From Sphingomonas sp. EC-HK361 (GTDB lineage: Bacteria; Pseudomonadota; Alphaproteobacteria; Sphingomonadales; Sphingomonadaceae): DNA of 64,000 bases. Shown here in pieces: positions 5,429-64,000 of this stretch. The translations under genes and the position numbers were made by a program. How positions within the stretch are numbered: the stretch's first letter is position 1; every line of letters begins with the position of its first letter. The DNA lies in contig NZ_LR701493.1 of NCBI RefSeq assembly GCF_902498785.1, forward strand, positions 295,459-359,458, in the 5' to 3' direction. The notes under the pieces were generated by a model that worked only from the letters and a program-made list of their open reading frames with translations, ran no database searches and was not told where the DNA came from.

Positions 5429-5893
5429 ATGACCACGCATATCGATCGCAGGCTCGAAGAGCTCGGCCTCACCCTTCCCGAGGCCGCAGCGCCCGTCGCC
5501 GCCTATGTTCCCGTCGTCGAGGCGGGCGGGCTGCTCCACCTGTCCGGGCAGCTGCCCTTCAAGGACGGCCAGCTGATGACTGGCCGGCTGGGCGATGGCG
5601 TGAGCCTTGAGGAGGGTCAGGACGCGGCGAAGGCGTGTGCGCTGATGATCGTCGCGCAGGTGAAGAAGCATCTCGGCGGCGATCTGGCGCGGGTGAAGCG
5701 GATCGTGAAGCTCGGCGTCTTCGTGAACAGCCACGGCGATTTCACCGACCAGCCCAAGGTTGCGAACGGCGCGTCGGAACTGATGGTCGCGCTGTTCGGC
5801 GATGCCGGCAAGCACGCCCGCTCGGCGGTCGGCGTGCCCGTCCTGCCGCTCGGCGCTGCGGTCGAGATCGACGCGATCATCGAACTGGCTTGA
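5429..5893 (+). CDS. RidA/YjgF family enamine/imine deaminase
   Basis: 154 residues, full length for RidA. The family core VPVLPLGAAVEIDAI and the preceding conserved Arg (HARSAVGV), which holds the substrate carboxylate, are present. RidA proteins hydrolyse reactive 2-aminoacrylate-type enamines formed by PLP enzymes. It follows the HAD gene by 31 bases with a good AGAGGA ribosome site. The long N-terminal extension places it in the larger RidA subgroup, so the exact substrate is uncertain. Confidence 0.87.
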   Translation: MTTHIDRRLEELGLTLPEAAAPVAAYVPVVEAGGLLHLSGQLPFKDGQLMTGRLGDGVSLEEGQDAAKACALMIVAQVKKHLGGDLARVKRIVKLGVFVNSHGDFTDQPKVANGASELMVALFGDAGKHARSAVGVPVLPLGAAVEIDAIIELA

Positions 5894-5926
5894 GGCGGAG
5901 CAGCGCGCTCCTACGTTAGGGAGCGG

Positions 5927-7060
5927 ATGTCCGCTCTCATCGCCCGACTCGCCGACGGCGTCGCACAAGTCCCCGCCGTCCAGTGGGATGCGTGCGCGGG
6001 CAACGCCAATCCGTTCGTCAGCCACGCCTTCCTGACCCTGCTCGAGGACTCGGGCAGCGTCGGCGGGCGCAGCGGATGGCAGCCCATCCCGATCCTCGTC
6101 GACGGCGCCGACGGCACGCCCGCCGCGATCGCACCCGCCTATGCAAAGGCGCACAGCCAGGGCGAATATGTGTTCGATCATGCCTGGGCCGACGCATGGG
6201 AGCGCGCAGGCGGGCGCTATTACCCCAAGCTTCAGATCGCGACGCCCTTCACGCCGGTTCCCGGTCCCCGCCTGCTGCTGCGCGACGAAACCGCCGCCCC
6301 CGCGCTGATCGCCGCGATCGAGGCGGTGACCGACCAGCATCAGCTGTCTTCCGCACACGCGACCTTCATCACTCCCGCCGAAATCCCGCTGTTCGAGGCG
6401 GCGGGCTGGCTGATCCGGCAGGGCACGCAGTTCCACTGGACCAACGCGGGCTATACGACGTTCGACGATTTCCTCGCCGACCTCGCCAGCCGCAAGCGCA
6501 AGGCTATCCGCAAGGAACGCGCCGCAGCCATCGAGGGGCTGACGATCCGGCATCTGACGGGCAGCGACCTGACCGAGGCGCACTGGGACGCCTTCTGGAT
6601 CTTCTATCAGGACACCGGCTCGCGCAAATGGGGGACGCCCTATCTCACCCGCCGCTTCTTCTCGCTGCTGGGCGAGGCGATGGCCGACAAGGTGCTGCTC
6701 GTCCTCGCCGAGCGTGACGGGCGACCGATCGCCGGCGCGCTCAACATGATCGGCGCCGATACGCTTTACGGCCGCTATTGGGGCGCGACCGAGGAGGTGC
6801 CCTTCCTCCATTTCGAGCTGTGCTATTACCAGGCCATCGATGTCGCGATCGCTCTGGGGCTGACAACGGTCGAGGCGGGCGCGCAGGGCGAGCACAAGCT
6901 CGCGCGCGGCTATGCCCCGGTGCCGACTTTCTCCGCGCACTACCTCCCCGACCCCGGGTTCAAGCGCGCGGTATCGGATTTCCTCGAGCGCGAACGCGAA
7001 GCCGTGGCCGCCGACCGCGAATTCCTGGACACGATGACGCCGTTCCGGCGCTGTCAGTAG
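5927..7060 (+). CDS. COG3146/DUF482 FemAB-like N-acyltransferase
   Basis: 377 residues. The segments FVSHAFLTLLEDSGSVG near the N-terminus, GEYVFDHAWADAWERAG, YYPKLQIATPFTPVPGPRLL and RKAIRKER are characteristic of COG3146 proteins, which have a double GNAT fold like peptidoglycan-bridge FemAB transferases. The precise substrate is not known for the family; annotation as peptidogalycan biosynthesis protein is historical. It is convergent with the membrane protein at 7068, only 7 bases apart. Confidence 0.83.
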   Translation: MSALIARLADGVAQVPAVQWDACAGNANPFVSHAFLTLLEDSGSVGGRSGWQPIPILVDGADGTPAAIAPAYAKAHSQGEYVFDHAWADAWERAGGRYYPKLQIATPFTPVPGPRLLLRDETAAPALIAAIEAVTDQHQLSSAHATFITPAEIPLFEAAGWLIRQGTQFHWTNAGYTTFDDFLADLASRKRKAIRKERAAAIEGLTIRHLTGSDLTEAHWDAFWIFYQDTGSRKWGTPYLTRRFFSLLGEAMADKVLLVLAERDGRPIAGALNMIGADTLYGRYWGATEEVPFLHFELCYYQAIDVAIALGLTTVEAGAQGEHKLARGYAPVPTFSAHYLPDPGFKRAVSDFLEREREAVAADREFLDTMTPFRRCQ

Positions 7061-7067
7061 AACCGGG

Positions 7068-8669
7068 TCAGTAAAGCGGCGCCTTCATCGTCGCGGGGTC
7101 GTAGACCGGCCCCGGCGCGCCGTGATCGACCTTGAACAGCACGCTGCGTCCGCTGCGCCAGATCGGCGTCAGCCCCGCCGTCAACCGCCGGTCGTAGCGC
7201 GGCGGATCGATGAGCCACAGATAGTCATAGGCATCCCGCGGAAACTTGAACATCGCGAGTCCGATCGGCCGCCACCATTGCCGCGGGCAGCGATATTGCG
7301 TCACGATCTGCGACGGATCGTGCGCGAACCTGCCCGCCGCCGCATAGCGCGTCGTCAGAAGCTGCCCGCCCGGCATCGACCACTGGTCGTTCGCGAACGC
7401 CATCTTGCGCACCATCGCCAGCCCCGGCGCATGCTCCAGCCGCGACATCGTCCAGGTGTTGCGGCAGCTATAGCCGATGAAGGTCAGCAGCCGCGCGCGC
7501 GGCGGCAGCCTGTCGATCGCCGCGAACTCGCGTTTGTAGGTCTGGTCGAACATCCAGTAGCTGACGGTCTGCGCGCCGATCCTCACCAGGAAGAAGGCGA
7601 GCCCTATCGCCGCCAGCACCGCGGCGCCGCGCATCGACAGCCCCGGCTTCGGCCGGATCGCGATCAGCGCGATCGCGACCATGAACGGCGCGAGGCGCAT
7701 ATCGGCATAGGCGGAGCCGAAGACGATGCGCGGGAGCAGGATATAGACCGCGACCAGGAACAGCGTGGAGAGCCCGAGGTGCCGCGAATATTCGATGCCC
7801 GGATCGCGCAGGCCCTTCATCAGCACCAGCAGCAGCACCGCGGTCGATGCGATGTCGAAGGCGAGCCAGCGGTCGCGCAGGATCATCGTGATCCACTGGA
7901 TCTTGAAGCGCCAGTTGAACCAGTCGGCGGTCTGCCCGGTCACATGGTCGCCCGATCGCCACAACACCATGAGCAGCATCGGCAGCGCCAGCGGCAGGCA
8001 GCCGAGCCCGGCGCGCACCCAGCTTTCCAGCCAGTGCCCCCCGCGACCGTCCTTGCGCAGATCATGCTGGCGGATCATCTCGGCCGAGAAGGCGAGCACG
8101 CCGAGCACCCCCCAGCCGAAGGTGTGACACACCCACAGCGCGCAGGACAGCGGCACGAAGACGACCGCGCGGGCCTTCAGCCGGCCGAGCCGCGCCATGC
8201 GCAGCCACAGCCCGAACATCACGAACGCCAGCCCCATCGACAGCGCAAAATTCACGAAGCCGAACTGGAGCGGGTAGCTGTATGCCAGCGGCAGCGCGAA
8301 GAGCGCGGTCGGCGGAATGCGGCCGTGCACTTCGCGCGCGATCCACAGCAGCCCGGCGACGATGAGCGCCGGGATCGCCATCACGATCAGCTTCACGCCA
8401 AGCTCGAGCCCGAAGACCTTGGCCATCGGGATGACGAGCAGATCGACGCCGAGATTGCCGATCAGCTGCCATTTGAAGGCATACCAGTCGTTGAGCCAGG
8501 GATTGCTGCCGATCGCGAGCTGGACGCGATATCGCCCCATATGCCCGAGCAGATCGACGAGCGGCGGCACCGTCGGCCACAGCAGCGGGACGACGGCAAC
8601 GAACGTCGCCGCGACGACGAACGCGCGGCTTTCCCACCAATGTGTCGCTGTTCGGCCTCCCGCGCCCAT
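7068..8669 (-). CDS. Polytopic membrane protein, probable GT-C-like, function unknown
   Basis: 533 residues from the ATG at 8669, with about ten to twelve hydrophobic helices and a hydrophilic C-terminal domain of roughly 130 residues that has several Trp, Arg and Cys. The first large loop after helix 1 holds DLLGHMGRY and further polar residues. I do not recognise a named family. It lies 23 bases downstream of another polytopic protein in the same direction, so the pair probably works together, perhaps in surface glycan assembly. The organisation resembles GT-C glycosyltransferases, but this is inference. Confidence 0.6.
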   Translation of the reverse strand: MGAGGRTATHWWESRAFVVAATFVAVVPLLWPTVPPLVDLLGHMGRYRVQLAIGSNPWLNDWYAFKWQLIGNLGVDLLVIPMAKVFGLELGVKLIVMAIPALIVAGLLWIAREVHGRIPPTALFALPLAYSYPLQFGFVNFALSMGLAFVMFGLWLRMARLGRLKARAVVFVPLSCALWVCHTFGWGVLGVLAFSAEMIRQHDLRKDGRGGHWLESWVRAGLGCLPLALPMLLMVLWRSGDHVTGQTADWFNWRFKIQWITMILRDRWLAFDIASTAVLLLVLMKGLRDPGIEYSRHLGLSTLFLVAVYILLPRIVFGSAYADMRLAPFMVAIALIAIRPKPGLSMRGAAVLAAIGLAFFLVRIGAQTVSYWMFDQTYKREFAAIDRLPPRARLLTFIGYSCRNTWTMSRLEHAPGLAMVRKMAFANDQWSMPGGQLLTTRYAAAGRFAHDPSQIVTQYRCPRQWWRPIGLAMFKFPRDAYDYLWLIDPPRYDRRLTAGLTPIWRSGRSVLFKVDHGAPGPVYDPATMKAPLY

Positions 8670-57855: not shown

Positions 57856-60168
57856 TCAGAAGTTCACCCGACCCACGACCCCGAAATAGCGGTCCGCCTC
57901 GCGCGGGATGATATAGCGATAGCTGCCGCCCGGCCCGCCGCTGGTGATCGCCGAGGCGAAGCTCTGGTCGAGCAGGTTCTTGACCTGGAAGGTCACGCGG
58001 TAGCGGTCATCGGCATCGACGATACCGGCGGAGAGATCGACCAGCCCATAGGCGCGGATCGTGGTCGCCTGCCGGATCGCGGCCGAGGCATCGAGCTGCG
58101 AAATCTGCTTCGATTGATAGGACCCTTGCGCGCCCAGCTGGAAATCGACCGCCCCGCCGGTGCGGATGCGGTAGTCCGCCGACAGCAACCCCTTCCACTT
58201 GGGGGCGTAGGGCAGTTGCGTGCCCGATGGGACCACGCCCGTCGTCACGCCGTTGGTCGGCACCTTGAACTGGTCGATATGCGCGTCGGTATAGGCGAGC
58301 CCGCCGTTGAAACTCAGATCGCGGATCGGCTGATACAGCAGATCGAGTTCGGCACCGCGGGTCGAGATTTCGCCCGCATTGGTGAAGCGCGTGACGAGCA
58401 CGCCCGCAACGATGTCCGGGTTGTTCGCCTGGAAGTTGTGATATTTGGCGTAATAGCCGGCCAGATTGACGACAAGCTTGCCGCCGAACAGCGTATTCTT
58501 CAGCCCGGCCTCATAGCTATCGGCCGTCTCCGGATCGATGACGTTGGTGCCGGTTGCAGTCAGATTGTAGAAGATATTGAACGCCGGCCCCTTATAGCCG
58601 CGTGAATAGGTGGCGTAGGCCGTCGATTGCTTCACGATATCGAATTGCAGGCCAGCCTTGCCCGACCAATTGTCGTTGGTCGTCTTGCCGCGAAACGGGC
58701 CAAAACTTGGCTGGATGCCCGGGCCGGCCAGCGTCGTCACGCGGCTGTGGAACACGTCCAGCTGATCGGTGGTGTAGCGGATGCCGGCGATGCCGCGGAA
58801 GCGATCAGTGAAGTTGAGCGTCGACTGCCCGAACAGCGCGAAATTCTTGAAGGTCGATCCGAACACCGCGGTGCCAGTCGGACGGGTGATCGTCGTCCCG
58901 GTGGTCGAGCACGGCGTCAGGACCGTGGGCGTCGGGGTGAGGGTGCAGGCCACATCGTTTCGGGTAAAGCTGCGCTCGGTATAGGCACGCGAGTAATAGG
59001 CGCCCAGCACATAGCTGAAGAACTGGTTCGCAGGGCTGGTGATCCGCAGCTCCTGCGTCAGCGTGTCGCTGGTCTGCGGTCCGAAATCGTGAAGCTCGTT
59101 CGCCTGGACATAGGGTTGCGGCAGCCAGTCGCCGTCGCGGATCTCTGTGTTGTCATATTCGCGGTAGCTGCCGATATAGGTCACCGTCTGTGTGCCCAGC
59201 GTCCAGTCCGCCTGGAGTGACGCACCCCAGCTTTTCTCATCGGTGTGGGTGATGAGGTTCTGGTTCACCGTGCGCGATTCGTTGCCCCGAATGTCCGGCA
59301 GGACGCTCGCGGTCAGATTGGCGGGCGTCGTCCCGATGATCTCCGCGCAGCAATTATCGTCGCTCTTGCGGTAGTCCGCGATCAGCGTGAGGGTCAGATC
59401 CGGGGTGGGATCGGCGACGATCATGCCGCGCACGCCCCAATGATCGTAGCCGTTCACTCGCTTGCCGTCATAGGCCAGGTTCTTGATATTGCCGTCGTAA
59501 TTTCCGTAGAAACCCGTCACGCGCGCGGCGATATGCTCGGCGAAGGGCAGGTCGATCGCGCCGCGGACGCGGTATTCGTTGCCGTTGTCGAAATAATAGG
59601 CGCCCTCCAGATAGCCGCCGAAGTCCTTGCCGGGACGCTTCGTCACGATGTTGATGACGCCGGCCGACGTGTTCTTGCCGAACAGCGTGCCCTGCGGCCC
59701 GCGCAAGACCTCGATCCGGTCGACGTCGATCAGGTCGCTGAACGCCTCGCCCGCACGGCTGTAGACGACGCCGTCGACGACCGTGGAGATCGATGGCTCG
59801 CCCGCGATCGAAAAGGTCGAGGTGCCGACCCCGCGCAGGAACAGCGACTGGTTGATCGCAGTGCCGCTTTTCCGGAAGTTGAGCGTGGGGACGAGATACT
59901 GCGCGCCCTCGAGATTCACCGCGCCCTTCGCGGCGAGCGCATCGCCCGAGATGACCGACACCGCGACCGGCACGTCCTGCAACCGCTCCGACCGCTTCTG
60001 CGCGGTGACGACGATGTCGCCGGGCGCCGCCTCGGCTGTGTCGGTCGGAACCGCGGCCTGCGCGTCGGCGGCCGGCGTCTGTGTTCCCGCGGTGCCGGCG
60101 TCCTGCGCAAAAGCGGGGGCACTGCCCAGTGCAATCAGCGCGGCACCTGCCATCAGATAGGATTTCAT
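57856..60168 (-). CDS. TonB-dependent receptor of the putative sulfo-sugar cluster
   Basis: 770 residues from the ATG at 60168, behind GGGAGGAGG. Signal peptide to APAFA, an acidic Ala/Thr-rich linker, plug from DIVVTAQKRSERLQDVPVAVSVI with VEVLRGPQGTLFGKNTSAGVINIVTKRP-type sequence, then a barrel ending GRVNF with terminal Phe. A pair of cysteines (DDNCCAE) may form a disulfide. It imports a ligand across the outer membrane. The Gfo/Idh gene 100 bases upstream on the same strand and the divergent oxidoreductase operon suggest a sugar-like or organosulfur ligand. Confidence 0.92.
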   Translation of the reverse strand: MKSYLMAGAALIALGSAPAFAQDAGTAGTQTPAADAQAAVPTDTAEAAPGDIVVTAQKRSERLQDVPVAVSVISGDALAAKGAVNLEGAQYLVPTLNFRKSGTAINQSLFLRGVGTSTFSIAGEPSISTVVDGVVYSRAGEAFSDLIDVDRIEVLRGPQGTLFGKNTSAGVINIVTKRPGKDFGGYLEGAYYFDNGNEYRVRGAIDLPFAEHIAARVTGFYGNYDGNIKNLAYDGKRVNGYDHWGVRGMIVADPTPDLTLTLIADYRKSDDNCCAEIIGTTPANLTASVLPDIRGNESRTVNQNLITHTDEKSWGASLQADWTLGTQTVTYIGSYREYDNTEIRDGDWLPQPYVQANELHDFGPQTSDTLTQELRITSPANQFFSYVLGAYYSRAYTERSFTRNDVACTLTPTPTVLTPCSTTGTTITRPTGTAVFGSTFKNFALFGQSTLNFTDRFRGIAGIRYTTDQLDVFHSRVTTLAGPGIQPSFGPFRGKTTNDNWSGKAGLQFDIVKQSTAYATYSRGYKGPAFNIFYNLTATGTNVIDPETADSYEAGLKNTLFGGKLVVNLAGYYAKYHNFQANNPDIVAGVLVTRFTNAGEISTRGAELDLLYQPIRDLSFNGGLAYTDAHIDQFKVPTNGVTTGVVPSGTQLPYAPKWKGLLSADYRIRTGGAVDFQLGAQGSYQSKQISQLDASAAIRQATTIRAYGLVDLSAGIVDADDRYRVTFQVKNLLDQSFASAITSGGPGGSYRYIIPREADRYFGVVGRVNF

Positions 60169-60240
60169 TGCGTTCCTCCTCCCTATTCCCACTTCATCGG
60201 TGGGATATTCCTGTCATGCCCGCCGTGTCGCCCGCGGTTC

Positions 60241-60260
60241 GGCTTTGGGGGCGCAAAGCC
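60241..60260. other. Hairpin between the Gfo/Idh and TonB receptor genes
   Basis: GGCTTTG and CAAAGCC form a perfect 7-bp stem around GGGGCG, 9 bases past the Gfo/Idh stop. There is no T-run on the minus strand, so it may limit read-through or protect the upstream mRNA end rather than stop transcription. Confidence 0.4.
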
Positions 60261-60268
60261 CCGCTTCG

Positions 60269-61357
60269 TCAGAATCCCAGTTCGCTCATTTCGACGACGC
60301 GCTTCTCGCGCGCGCTGATCTCGGCCGCGGTGCCGATCGCCACCGCCATCAGCCCGTCGCGCGCGGTAACCTCGACCGCGCCCTCCCCGCGCACCGCAGC
60401 GTTGAAGCGCTGATGCTCGTAGAAGGTCGATCCGTGATGGCTGCCGGCATCGAGCGCGGCCTGATCGACCTCCACCACATGGCGTTCCGCACGCTTGGGC
60501 TGGCGGAAGCCGACGCGGGGCGAATAGACGATCGCGCCTTCGGGGATCAGCACGTCGAGCCGCGCGTCGCTGCCGACCGCGGTGATCTCCTCCTGATTCT
60601 CGGCGCCGTCGGCGAACATCGACAGATCGAGCATCGCGCGGACGCCATTGGCGAAATCGACGGTCGTGAAGCTGTTGTCGATGATGTCGGGCTGCACCCC
60701 GTCATACGCCTCGTCGAGATGGTTCACGTCCATCGCGCCCGAGCAATACACCCGCACCGCCTCGCTTTTCGTGATGAGCCGCATGAGATCGAAGAAATGG
60801 CAGCATTTCTCGACCATCGTGCCGCCGGTGTTCGCGCTGAAGCGGTTCCAGTCGCCGACCTTGGGCAGGAAGGGAAAGCGGTGCTCGCGGATCGACAGCA
60901 TCTGAAGCCGTCCGATCTTGCCGCCATGCACGCCCGCTATGAACTCGGCCGCGGGCGGCATGTAGCGATATTCCATCGCGGTCCAGAACGGGCGACCACT
61001 CTTCTCCGCCTGCTCGACGATCCAGCGCGCATCGGGGATCGTCGTCGCGAGCGGCTTCTCGCACAGGATCGCGAGGCCTTCGCCGAACAGCGGCGCGAGG
61101 ACGTCGCGATGGGTATGGTTGGGACTGGCGACGATCACCGCATCGACCAGCCCGCTCTTTGCGAGTGCCGCCGAATCGGTGAACGCCTGCACGCCGTCCG
61201 CCCGGTCGCCGAGCGCGCCTCTTGCCCAACCCAGCGATGCCTCGACCGGATCGGCGATCGCGGTCACCACCGCGCCCGGCGTGATCGCCAGGTTGTTGAG
61301 GTGCTCCACCCCCATCATCCCGGTGCCCACCAGGCCGTAACGGACTTGCTCTCCCAA
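60269..61357 (-). CDS. Gfo/Idh/MocA family NAD-dependent oxidoreductase or glycosidase
   Basis: 362 residues, starting at a TTG with AAGGA 8 bases upstream. Rossmann motif GLVGTGMMG, EKPLA (LCEKPLATTI) and the conserved His in EKCCHFFDLM are in place, followed by the usual beta-sheet domain. Members oxidise sugars or inositols, but some use NAD transiently to cleave glycosides (GH4/GH109-like and the sulfoquinovosidase family GH188). Its place between a TonB receptor and an oxidative desulfonation-like operon makes a glycosidase role attractive. Reaction not proven by sequence. Confidence 0.85.
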   Translation of the reverse strand: MGEQVRYGLVGTGMMGVEHLNNLAITPGAVVTAIADPVEASLGWARGALGDRADGVQAFTDSAALAKSGLVDAVIVASPNHTHRDVLAPLFGEGLAILCEKPLATTIPDARWIVEQAEKSGRPFWTAMEYRYMPPAAEFIAGVHGGKIGRLQMLSIREHRFPFLPKVGDWNRFSANTGGTMVEKCCHFFDLMRLITKSEAVRVYCSGAMDVNHLDEAYDGVQPDIIDNSFTTVDFANGVRAMLDLSMFADGAENQEEITAVGSDARLDVLIPEGAIVYSPRVGFRQPKRAERHVVEVDQAALDAGSHHGSTFYEHQRFNAAVRGEGAVEVTARDGLMAVAIGTAAEISAREKRVVEMSELGF

Positions 61358-61381
61358 CGATCCTGTCCTTATATGACAACG

Positions 61382-62290
61382 ATGTCTGAAATCGCTCTAT
61401 CGCCCGATTCGAGGCCGCTCGGCAAGAGCGGAATCATGGTGTCACCGATTGCGTGGGGGATGTGGCGCTTCGCCGGCCGTTCCGCGGACGAGGCCCGCGC
61501 GCTGATCGAGGCGGCGTTTGCCGCCGGGATCACGCTGTTCGATACCGCCGACATCTACGGTTTCGACGGGGAGGGCGGATTCGGCGATGCCGAGTTGCTG
61601 CTGGGCGAGGTTTTTGCTGCGACACCGGGCCTGCGCGACCGCATGGTACTGGCGACCAAGGGCGGGATCACCCCGCCGGTGCCTTACGACTCGAGCCGCG
61701 AGTATCTGATGCGCGCGCTCGACAATTCGCTGCGCCGGATGCGCGTCGAGCAGGTCGATCTCTACCAGATCCACCGCCCCGACATCCTCGCACATCCGCA
61801 GGAGGTCGCCCGCGCGCTCGACGACATGGTCGCCAGCGGCAAGGTGAAGGCGGTCGGCGTGTCGAATTACTCGGTCGATCAGACGCGCACGCTCGCGAGC
61901 TTTCTCACCGTGCCGCTCGTCAGCCAGCAGCCCGAATTCTCGGCGCTGTTCACCGAGCCGATGACGAACGGCCTGTTCGACCAGGCGATGAAGCACGATG
62001 TCGCGATCCTCGCCTGGTCGCCGCTTGGCGGCGGGCGGATCGCCGATCCGGGCACCGCGCAGGAGCGCGCGGTCGCCGCTGCACTGGATGCCAAGGCCGA
62101 GGAAGCGGGTGTGAGCCGCACGGCCGCCGCCTATGCCTGGATCATGGCGCATCCGGTCCGCGCGATTCCGATCGTCGGCACCCAGAACGCGCAGCGGATC
62201 GCGGAGATCGGTGACGTCTTCAAGGTGAAGTGGACGCGCACCGAATGGTATGACGTGCTCGTCGCGTCGCGGGGGGAGAAATTGCCGTGA
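61382..62290 (+). CDS. Aldo/keto reductase
   Basis: 302 residues from the ATG at 61382 (an ATG at 61373 adds three). The catalytic tetrad Asp and Tyr in LFDTADIYG, Lys in VLATKGG and His in LYQIHRPD is intact, and the NADPH site GTQNAQRIAEI is near the C-terminus. It reduces aldehydes or ketones of sugars. In the sulfoquinovose monooxygenase pathway an AKR reduces 6-oxo-glucose to glucose, which fits its coupling (GTGA overlap) to a flavin monooxygenase. Only 24 bases separate its start from the divergent Gfo/Idh start. Confidence 0.88.
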   Translation: MSEIALSPDSRPLGKSGIMVSPIAWGMWRFAGRSADEARALIEAAFAAGITLFDTADIYGFDGEGGFGDAELLLGEVFAATPGLRDRMVLATKGGITPPVPYDSSREYLMRALDNSLRRMRVEQVDLYQIHRPDILAHPQEVARALDDMVASGKVKAVGVSNYSVDQTRTLASFLTVPLVSQQPEFSALFTEPMTNGLFDQAMKHDVAILAWSPLGGGRIADPGTAQERAVAAALDAKAEEAGVSRTAAAYAWIMAHPVRAIPIVGTQNAQRIAEIGDVFKVKWTRTEWYDVLVASRGEKLP

Positions 62291-63357
62291 GCGATGGCAC
62301 GAGGGGATGCGAGATCAGCTGGTTCTCGGCGCTGTGCGACGACGATTACGAGTTTCTGGGGCAACCGGACCCGATGCTCGCGTCGAGCTGGGAGCATTGC
62401 CGCGACATCGTGATGCAGGCCGAAACCGGCGGGTTCGACAACATCCTGCTCCCCTCCGGCTATGCGCTGGGCATCGACACCACCGCCTTTGCCGCCGCGA
62501 TCGCGACGCTGACGCGGCGGATCAACCTGCTGATGGCGGTGCGAATCGGCGAGAGCTGGCCGCCCCAGCTCGCCCGCCAGATCGCTACCATTGATCGGAT
62601 GACGGGCGGCGGCAGGCTGAAGATCAACATCATCTCCTCCGACCTGCCCGGCGAGACGATGCCGTCCGCCCCGCGCTATGCCCGCACGGTCGAGGCGATG
62701 GCGATCCTGAAGGACATGCTGAACGGGAAGGCGATCGATCATCAGGGCGAATTCTGGCAGCTGAAGCTCGATCCACCACGCGTCACGACCGTCTCCGGCA
62801 GGGCACCGCTCCTCTATTTCGGCGGGCTCTCCCCCGATGCGCGCGAGGCTGCGGCCAAGGGCTGCGATGTGTTCCTGATGTGGCCCGACAAGTGCGAGAC
62901 GATCGCCGCGATCATGGCCGACATGGACGAACGCGCCGCCAGATACGGCCGCAAGCTCCGCTATGGCTACCGCGCGCACGTCATCGTCCGCGAGACGGAG
63001 GCCGAAGCCCGCACCTACGCCGACCGCCTGCTGTCGAAGCTCGACGCCGATCAGGGTGCCGCCATCCGCGCCAAGTCGCTCGATTCGACGAGCGTCGGCG
63101 TCGCCGCGCAGGCGGCGCTGCGCGAGGGTGCGTCGGACGACGGCTATGCCGAGGAAAATCTGTGGACCGGCGTCGGCCGTGCACGCTCCGGCTGCGGCGC
63201 GGCGATCGTCGGCGATCCCGATCAGGTGCTCGCGAAACTGCGCATGTATCAGGACATGGGGATCGAGGCGTTCATCCTCTCCGGCTACCCCCACGCCGCC
63301 GAAGCCGATCTGTTTGCGCGCCATGTGCTGCCGAACATCGACCACGCGCCACTCTGA
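62287..63357 (+). CDS. SsuD-like FMNH2-dependent monooxygenase (LLM class)
   Basis: 356 residues from a GTG that overlaps the reductase stop. The TIM-barrel segments and active-site residues of alkanesulfonate monooxygenase are kept: Arg and His in GYRAHVIVRET, Arg in GVGRARSGCG and Tyr in LSGYPHAAEA. The Cys54 position of SsuD lies in a diverged segment (LLPSGYALGID) and is not Cys. Such enzymes use FMNH2 and O2 to release sulfite from a C-S bond, giving an aldehyde. The neighbouring FMN reductase supplies FMNH2. Confidence 0.86.
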   Translation: MSDGTRGCEISWFSALCDDDYEFLGQPDPMLASSWEHCRDIVMQAETGGFDNILLPSGYALGIDTTAFAAAIATLTRRINLLMAVRIGESWPPQLARQIATIDRMTGGGRLKINIISSDLPGETMPSAPRYARTVEAMAILKDMLNGKAIDHQGEFWQLKLDPPRVTTVSGRAPLLYFGGLSPDAREAAAKGCDVFLMWPDKCETIAAIMADMDERAARYGRKLRYGYRAHVIVRETEAEARTYADRLLSKLDADQGAAIRAKSLDSTSVGVAAQAALREGASDDGYAEENLWTGVGRARSGCGAAIVGDPDQVLAKLRMYQDMGIEAFILSGYPHAAEADLFARHVLPNIDHAPL

Positions 63358-63373
63358 CGCTAACACCCTGCGC

Positions 63374-63964
63374 ATGGCGGACCGCGAACCCACTTCCCCT
63401 CTCGTCGTCGGCATCGGCGGCACGATCGGCGGCATCTCCTCCACCGAGCGCGCGCTGCGCATCGCGCTCGACGGCGCTGCGAAGGAGGGGTTCCGCACGC
63501 GGCTGTTCGGCGGCGCGGACATGGCGCGCCTGCCGCTTTATGATCCGCGCGCAACGACTCGGACGGCGGACGAGCGCGCCTTCGTCGATGCGGTGCGCGA
63601 GGCGTCCGCGATCATCATCGCGTCGCCCGGCTATCACGGCAGCATTTCCGGCGTGGTGAAGAACGCGCTCGATCTGCTGGAAGAAACCGCGCGCGACGAA
63701 CGCCGCGCCTATCTCGCCGACATGCCGGTCGGGCTGATCGCCACCGCCTATGGCTGGCAGGCGACCGGTTCGACGATCGCGGCGCTCAGATCAATCGTCC
63801 ACGCGCTGCGCGGATGGCCAACGCCGTTCGCCGCCGCGATCAACACCCAGATCACCAAGTTCGACGACGATGGCGGCGCCAGCGACCCGGCGGTCGTCGA
63901 GCAGCTCCGGCTGATCGGCCGGCAAGTCGCGCGCTTCGCACCGCTGGCGGCCGCCAATGCTTGA
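63374..63964 (+). CDS. NAD(P)H-dependent FMN reductase
   Basis: 196 residues from the ATG at 63374. Flavodoxin-like fold of the SsuE/MsuE kind: GIGGTIGGISSTERALRI phosphate loop, PGYHGSISGVVKNALD signature. It provides reduced flavin to the monooxygenase 16 bases upstream. It ends 8 bases into the next gene. Confidence 0.87.
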   Translation: MADREPTSPLVVGIGGTIGGISSTERALRIALDGAAKEGFRTRLFGGADMARLPLYDPRATTRTADERAFVDAVREASAIIIASPGYHGSISGVVKNALDLLEETARDERRAYLADMPVGLIATAYGWQATGSTIAALRSIVHALRGWPTPFAAAINTQITKFDDDGGASDPAVVEQLRLIGRQVARFAPLAAANA

Positions 63965-64000
63965 TCGTCGCGCAGCGCTTGCCACGATCGGCTTCGGCAC
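63957..64000 (+). CDS. Start of a further gene, possibly Tat-exported
   Basis: Only 14 codons are visible. The ATG at 63957 overlaps the FMN reductase stop by 8 bases, so the gene belongs to the same operon. The reading MLDRRAALATIGFG has Arg-Arg followed by a hydrophobic stretch, like a twin-arginine signal or a simple signal peptide. Family cannot be set. Confidence 0.4.
   Translation, partial: MLDRRAALATIGFG

Follow-up and report, generated by a model that had tools for sequence, protein, structure and literature searches.

A probable sulfoquinovose monooxygenase cluster in Sphingomonas, with a GH188 sulfoquinovosidase homologue and a linked TonB-dependent receptor

The closest described systems are the sulfo-SMO and sulfo-ASMO pathways of sulfoquinovose (SQ) degradation, represented by the smo genes of Agrobacterium tumefaciens and by SquD/SquF of Novosphingobium aromaticivorans, which have a SmoC-type monooxygenase and an aldo/keto reductase (AKR), with a flavin reductase in many clusters, and whose chemistry is set out in section 10 of PMC9594981. 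A survey published in ISME in 2026 gives the presence of SmoB and SmoC alone as its criterion for sulfo-SMO, so an ATP-binding cassette (ABC) transporter is, by that definition, not a required feature of the pathway. Among the taxa labelled by 13C-SQ in aquatic samples were Sphingomonadaceae and Novosphingobium, and relatives of the latter were predicted to have sulfo-SMO (PMC13372026). This study focused on a stretch of 64,000 nucleotides from Sphingomonas sp. EC-HK361 (contig NZ_LR701493.1, positions 295,459 to 359,458; hereafter, the window), the last ~6 kb of which (57856-64000) is filled by two divergent gene units. We put at about 0.88 the probability that this locus is a sulfo-SMO cluster for the use of SQ glycosides as carbon source, in a form common to sphingomonads; the sulfur-containing sugar of plant sulfolipids would most likely be taken up and eaten by means of this gene set. 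An earlier reading of the same DNA (the original prediction) had proposed oxidative cleavage of the C-S bond of an SQ-like sugar and reduction of the 6-oxo product, a scheme now supported by the solved relatives of the luciferase-like monooxygenase (LLM) and the AKR, by phylogeny, and by a sulfoquinovosidase homologue of family GH188.

No single finding pointed more strongly to SQ glycosides than the minus-strand gene at 60269..61357, whose product has the Gfo/Idh fold. Its best matches in the PDB were 8qc2 (E 9.5e-112), 8qc3 (6.8e-110) and 8zn9 (1.5e-96), with the next protein at 1e-21, and the corresponding bit scores were 377 for GH188 SqgA, 327 for 8zn9 and 80 for the next protein. A role as generic sugar or inositol dehydrogenase was rejected on these scores. 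The entries 8qc2 and 8qc3 are the FlSqgA and ArSqgA complexes of Kaur et al. 2023 (PMC10755693), and all eight SQ-contacting or sulfonate-binding residues of ArSqgA that could be mapped from that source are kept in the window protein (Lys107, Tyr136, Arg166, Leu170, Lys172, Glu189, His193 and His321). A ninth residue, Glu163, was unmappable, the same offset landing on a Val in 8qc3; beside it stands Glu164, which is conserved, also in the window, so the number printed in PMC10755693 may be off by one. The published SqgA cleaves SQ-glycerol and showed no activity with nitrophenyl glucosides. The window gene (sqgA) thus encodes, by sequence, a homologue of the NAD-dependent sulfoquinovosidases of GH188; the original prediction had recognized the fold and missed this role.

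The LLM gene lies on the plus strand (62287..63357; PF00296). The top PDB matches of its product were 7oh2 (E 5e-114) and 7olf (E 8e-114), which we take to be the SmoC proteins of Rhizobium and Agrobacterium; SsuD structures followed at E 1e-62 and 3e-52, SfnG at 1e-20, and enzymes of the nitrilotriacetate or dibenzothiophene type at 9e-10 or weaker. Of the NCBIfam models, the SsuD equivalog scored best, at 244.5 bits and under its cut-off of 518.2, and the NtaA/DmoA model TIGR03860 gave 73.4 bits. When 94 proteins were placed in a tree, the window protein, the monooxygenases of all 80 related loci described below, and 7oh2/7olf shared one side of a 100/99 branch, and two SsuD structures together with four SsuD-like sphingomonad paralogues (L081-L084) clustered elsewhere; several outgroup rows of this tree are very long-branched, and L089 branches off on the side of SmoC but not within its clade. 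The 121 genomes searched from the Sphingomonas group gave matches to the window SmoC of either 73-89% or ≤37% identity, with none in between. The original prediction had suggested comparing the LLM protein with SmoC and SsuD in a phylogeny and would have been refuted by a firm grouping with non-sulfonate LLM enzymes; no such grouping was seen, with 244.5 bits to the SsuD model vs 73.4 to NtaA/DmoA. Two candidates were rejected: an NtaA/DmoA/DszA-type enzyme, by the TIGR03860 score and the PDB matches of 9e-10 or weaker, and an SsuD alkanesulfonate monooxygenase, by a score below the SsuD cut-off and a position outside the SsuD clade. By homology to the references named above, the gene is a predicted smoC, encoding a SmoC-type SQ monooxygenase.

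Two further observations concern the distribution of smoC. One genome of the Sphingomonas group (G031) carries two copies, at C55:62970-64013 and C2:38039-39082, which are 78% and 77% identical to that of the window. Homologues were also found on 29 plasmid records, including megaplasmids of sphingomonads and Rhizobium, with 54-76% identity among the 20 matches listed; the predicted mobility of these records was non-mobilizable for 25, conjugative for two and mobilizable for two.

The AKR gene (61373..62290, plus strand; PF00248), for which an ATG at 61382 is an alternative start, overlaps smoC by 4 nt. Its product matched 7bbz/7bby best in the PDB, at 180 bits vs 119 for the next match (~62 bits ahead), and these entries we take to be SmoB. 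The best PDB match and the gene overlap point to a SmoB/SquF-type AKR adjoining smoC, putatively a 6-dehydroglucose reductase. After a gap of 16 nt, smoC is followed by a gene for an NAD(P)H-dependent flavin mononucleotide (FMN) reductase (63374..63964, plus strand; PF03358, E 2.6e-22), a putative supplier of FMNH2 to SmoC, with weak similarity to the SsuE/MsuE models that falls under their cut-off. A SsuE homologue is found in many sulfo-ASMO clusters, and N. aromaticivorans is given in section 10 of PMC9594981 as being without one.

The last gene of this unit starts at 63957 (plus strand), overlaps the FMN reductase gene by 8 nt, and runs for 14 codons up to the window end (64000). It was placed by its position and by its Tat-type N-terminus, MLDRRAALATIGFG, which may be compared with N-termini near the SorA start in two related loci, MPDRRDALRLIGLG (L025) and MDRRRALGLIGLG (L005). 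In eight of the 13 loci that carry the FMN reductase, sorA and sorB follow directly after it (L003, L005, L011, L014, L016, L025, L031 and L032). Two of these, L025 from Sphingomonas adhaesiva DSM 7418 and L031 from S. citricola, share the gene order of the window. The SorA protein of L031 scored 482.8 bits against the SorA model, under the curated cut-off of 600, and had as its best PDB match the sulfite:cytochrome c oxidoreductase 2blf (E 2e-109); the small protein of L032 reached 72 bits with the SorB model, under the curated cut-off of 93. The gene order of relatives and these 14 residues indicate that the gene most likely encodes SorA, a periplasmic sulfite dehydrogenase, which gives a name to what the original prediction had noted only as a further coupled gene. 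At the other end of the unit, sqgA and smoB start divergently with 15 bp (61358-61372) between them, and the spacing was estimated at -2 to 33 bp in 24 relatives; with so little room, one promoter or both must be situated within the gene facing it, unless the transcripts are nearly leaderless.

The gene neighbourhood was followed in 80 loci, which are the closest SmoC matches listed from a scan of genome contigs rather than a census, with SmoC proteins 68-89% identical to that of the window. They come mostly from sphingomonads, the others from Caulobacteraceae and Rhizobium. Locus genes were mapped by tblastn, with the major facilitator superfamily (MFS) carrier, LacI regulator and YeiH-like exporter counted at ≥40% identity to one representative each. 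The AKR and LLM genes occurred together in 72 of the 80 loci and a receptor of the window's type in 53, a recurrence which argues that the grouping is not due to chance; the genes of the original prediction all lie where it had placed them, and its pairing of AKR and LLM is among those that recur. Flanks of ≥8 kb were available to either side in 59 loci; of these, 45 had the receptor type (≥33% identity), 52 SmoB, 39 the MFS carrier, 36 the LacI regulator and 28 the YeiH-like exporter. In the window, the SQ-relevant functions are all contained in one pair of divergent units. Relatives supplement these with genes for an MFS carrier and a YeiH-like exporter, and some of the 80 loci also have GlpK- and GlpD-like genes, which would fit with the release of glycerol.

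The sulfoquinovosidase of these loci was GH188 in 32, GH31 in 32 (the representative is YihQ-like; PDB 5ohy, E 3e-250), both in none and neither in 16. That the two never occur in the same locus is expected if both fill one step. Their complementary distribution was reported previously (Kaur 2023, PMC10755693), and in the present loci it appears as a replacement within one type of cluster.

Some loci depart from the common layout. Those without a SmoB match are L042, L044, L045, L047, L055 and L065 (Rhizobium), and also L037 and L054, with SmoC 72-79% identical to that of the window, and in L044, L045 and L051 the smoC gene was seen by eye to have a LacI-like regulator on one side and a divergent, ABC-transporter-like unit on the other. 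In the Novosphingobium smo locus L068, an open reading frame of 757 aa (5599-7872, plus strand), arylsulfatase-like by eye, adjoins sqgA.

Downstream of sqgA on the minus strand lies the gene for a TonB-dependent receptor (57856..60192; Pfam Plug PF07715 and TonB_dep_Rec_b-barrel PF00593), putatively an importer of SQ or its glycosides across the outer membrane. Each of the 12 smo genomes examined holds 22-113 pieces that match the window receptor, and in all 12 the best of them is the copy adjacent to SmoC. Among the 121 genomes of the Sphingomonas group, SmoC was present in 56, the receptor (E ≤1e-105) in 58, and both in 56, and in these shared genomes the receptor was ≤4 kb from SmoC in 49, 11.2 kb away in one, and on another contig in six. 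Among 79 genomes of the Novosphingobium group, SmoC was found in 34 and the receptor in 33, every one of them with SmoC and 32 with it on the same contig. Pooled over the 200 genomes, the receptor type was present in 89 of 90 with SmoC vs two of 110 without. The threshold of 1e-105 was picked after the best-match result for the 12 genomes, and the Novosphingobium set was queried with a different receptor, one from Novosphingobium (L075). The Fisher p values for co-occurrence (1.2e-32 and 1.8e-21) overstate independence, given the relatedness of genomes within a genus.

A tree of 78 receptors, made by a quick method and counting as linked those ≤8 kb from SmoC and ≥33% identical to the window receptor, placed the latter and 52 linked receptors in one clade (SH-aLRT 100), with one unlinked row inside it (L108), whose match is limited to residues 213-778 and around which no smo gene occurs for ~8 kb. 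Linked receptors occur with GH188 in 28 loci and with GH31 in 25. These results support a dedicated function for the SmoC-linked receptor, whose cargo we infer. We consider it likely that this clade is dedicated to sulfoquinovosides, and would represent an outer-membrane step of SQ uptake that has travelled with sulfo-SMO through sphingomonads and Caulobacteraceae, and has stayed in place while GH188 and GH31 were exchanged. Two side observations on receptors may be added. Genome G042 has a second member of the linked clade (L110, 8886-10688), with a match confined to residues 213-778, which is flanked by flagellin-like and Nudix-like genes (by eye); no smo gene is nearby, and it is perhaps a decayed copy. 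The window itself contains another TonB-dependent receptor, matched from 24283 on the minus strand, which is 36% identical to the smo-linked one.

No paper on an outer-membrane receptor for SQ was found in the literature searched for sulfoquinovose together with TonB or outer membrane (most subscription papers lay outside this search), and the word TonB is absent from the main text of PMC10755693, PMC12890257, PMC13372026 and PMC9594981. The original prediction had regarded a TonB receptor with smo genes as an unfamiliar version of the pathway. The association proved real and specific, and the unfamiliarity weaker than was stated: the arrangement is common in sphingomonads, pathway work exists for N. 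aromaticivorans (PMC9594981), and a Sphingomonas GH188 cluster figures in Kaur 2023 (PMC10755693). The receptor itself is common in sphingomonads and seems to be little described.

From these parts a route can be proposed. The TonB receptor would bring SQ-glycerol or SQ across the outer membrane, and an inner-membrane carrier, for which many relatives have an MFS gene, would move the substrate to the cytosol. By homology, and with its active-site residues present, SqgA would release SQ and glycerol from the glycoside through a transient, NAD-dependent oxidation of C3. SmoC, likewise by homology, would then use O2 and the FMNH2 supplied by the FMN reductase to split SQ into sulfite and 6-dehydroglucose, which the SmoB-like AKR, again by homology, would reduce to glucose. 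The sulfite would be exported and oxidized to sulfate by SorAB, as suggested by the 14 codons at the window end and by the relatives.

A number of points weigh against this reading. The inner-membrane carrier, the regulator and SorB were not seen within the window, and the MFS, LacI and YeiH representatives had no match anywhere in its 64 kb. The window SmoC shares no more than 54-55% identity with 7oh2/7olf, and at 118 diagnostic columns, defined as those where the SmoC pair is uniform, the SsuD pair is uniform and the two pairs differ, it has the SmoC residue at 56, the SsuD residue at 15 and neither of the two at 47. The identities that we assume for 7oh2, 7olf and 7bbz/7bby are not given by the PDB names, and the codes 7OLF, 7OH2 and 7BBZ were named by no paper in the literature searched. 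The FMN reductase was found in only 13 of the 80 loci, and eight of the 80 have a SmoC of the window's type and no SmoB match. As for the receptor, 14 of the 59 well-flanked loci are without one of the window's type, and five receptors of lower identity, ~2-7 kb from SmoC (L006, L012, L033, L034 and L041), which were scored as unlinked in the tree, fall outside the clade, so that not every receptor near SmoC is of the window's type.

Part of this evidence can be accommodated by other explanations. A conventional alkanesulfonate monooxygenase of the SsuD type, scavenging sulfur from varied sulfonates, with the AKR, Gfo/Idh protein and receptor as bystanders, would agree with SsuD being both the best NCBIfam model and the next solved family after 7oh2/7olf; that score is below the cut-off, however, and such an enzyme is very improbable given the 100/99 branch, the gap in identity within the 121 genomes, the tight linkage of smoC to two unrelated types of sulfoquinovosidase, and the adjoining SorAB of eight relatives, which fits the disposal of sulfite and not sulfur scavenging. 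The same chemistry might instead act on another sulfosugar, for instance sulfofucose or another 6-sulfo-sugar glycoside, in keeping with the divergence of the window SmoC and SmoB from the solved enzymes and with the sulfofucose catabolic pathway described from Paracoccus (PMC12421959). This too we regard as improbable, because every SQ-contacting residue of GH188 that could be mapped is conserved, and in related loci GH188 is replaced by GH31 enzymes that are closest to YihQ.

The remaining alternative accepts that the enzymes act on SQ and concerns the receptor, which would be generic or carry some other cargo, with SQ glycosides entering through porins. SQ-glycerol is a small molecule, sphingomonad genomes hold the many matching receptor pieces noted above, the well-flanked loci without this receptor type are in line with it, and the solved structures matched by the window receptor are all of the siderophore type, mostly over the plug region, and are uninformative on substrate. 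A generic receptor would not, however, be expected to give the SmoC-linked copy as best match in every one of the 12 genomes, to separate genomes with and without SmoC so sharply, or to have its linked members in a single clade, alike with GH188 or GH31, and we think this alternative unlikely, although worth keeping in mind. A sulfo-SMO cluster, probably served by its own receptor, is the reading retained here. The passage of SQ glycosides across the outer membrane is not covered in the literature searched, and a receptor that co-occurs with SmoC in this way makes the step directly testable. The receptor could provide metagenome studies with a second marker of SQ use, and its clade is the part worth following, while the exchange of GH188 and GH31 in one cluster type shows that two unrelated sulfoquinovosidases replace one another.

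The relationship of the locus to known systems is close in its enzymes. The Agrobacterium smo cluster combines an ABC transporter for SQ-glycerol with a separate sulfoquinovosidase (PMC9594981), whereas the window has a TonB receptor and an adjacent GH188 gene; no SQ-glycerol ABC transporter of the Agrobacterium kind was present among the genes at 57856-64000, as the original prediction had remarked. The window sqgA resembles the GH188 SqgA of Kaur et al. 2023 (PMC10755693), with a match of ~1e-110 and all the mapped SQ-contacting residues, and a cluster of Sphingomonas sp. Leaf17 is among the representative SQ clusters with sqgA in Figure 5 of that paper, the legend of which does not state the pathway class. 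Roseobacter sulfo-SMO clusters with GH188 (Kaur 2023, PMC10755693) join a SmoC-type monooxygenase to GH188, as does the window. The plasmid-borne SmoC-like proteins of Paracoccus, Salipiger, Roseicitreum and Ruegeria show 54-57% identity with the window protein, compared to 68-89% in the 80 loci. Sphingomonad clusters with a YihQ-type GH31 agree with the window in their types of SmoC, SmoB and receptor (in 25 of the 80 loci) and differ in having GH31, not GH188, as their sulfoquinovosidase. SsuD/SsuE belong to the same LLM superfamily and are the nearest neighbour family, but the window enzyme falls in a separate clade and below the SsuD cut-off. The pathway and its enzymes are already known, including from studies of N. 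aromaticivorans (PMC9594981), and the receptor family is the testable new part.

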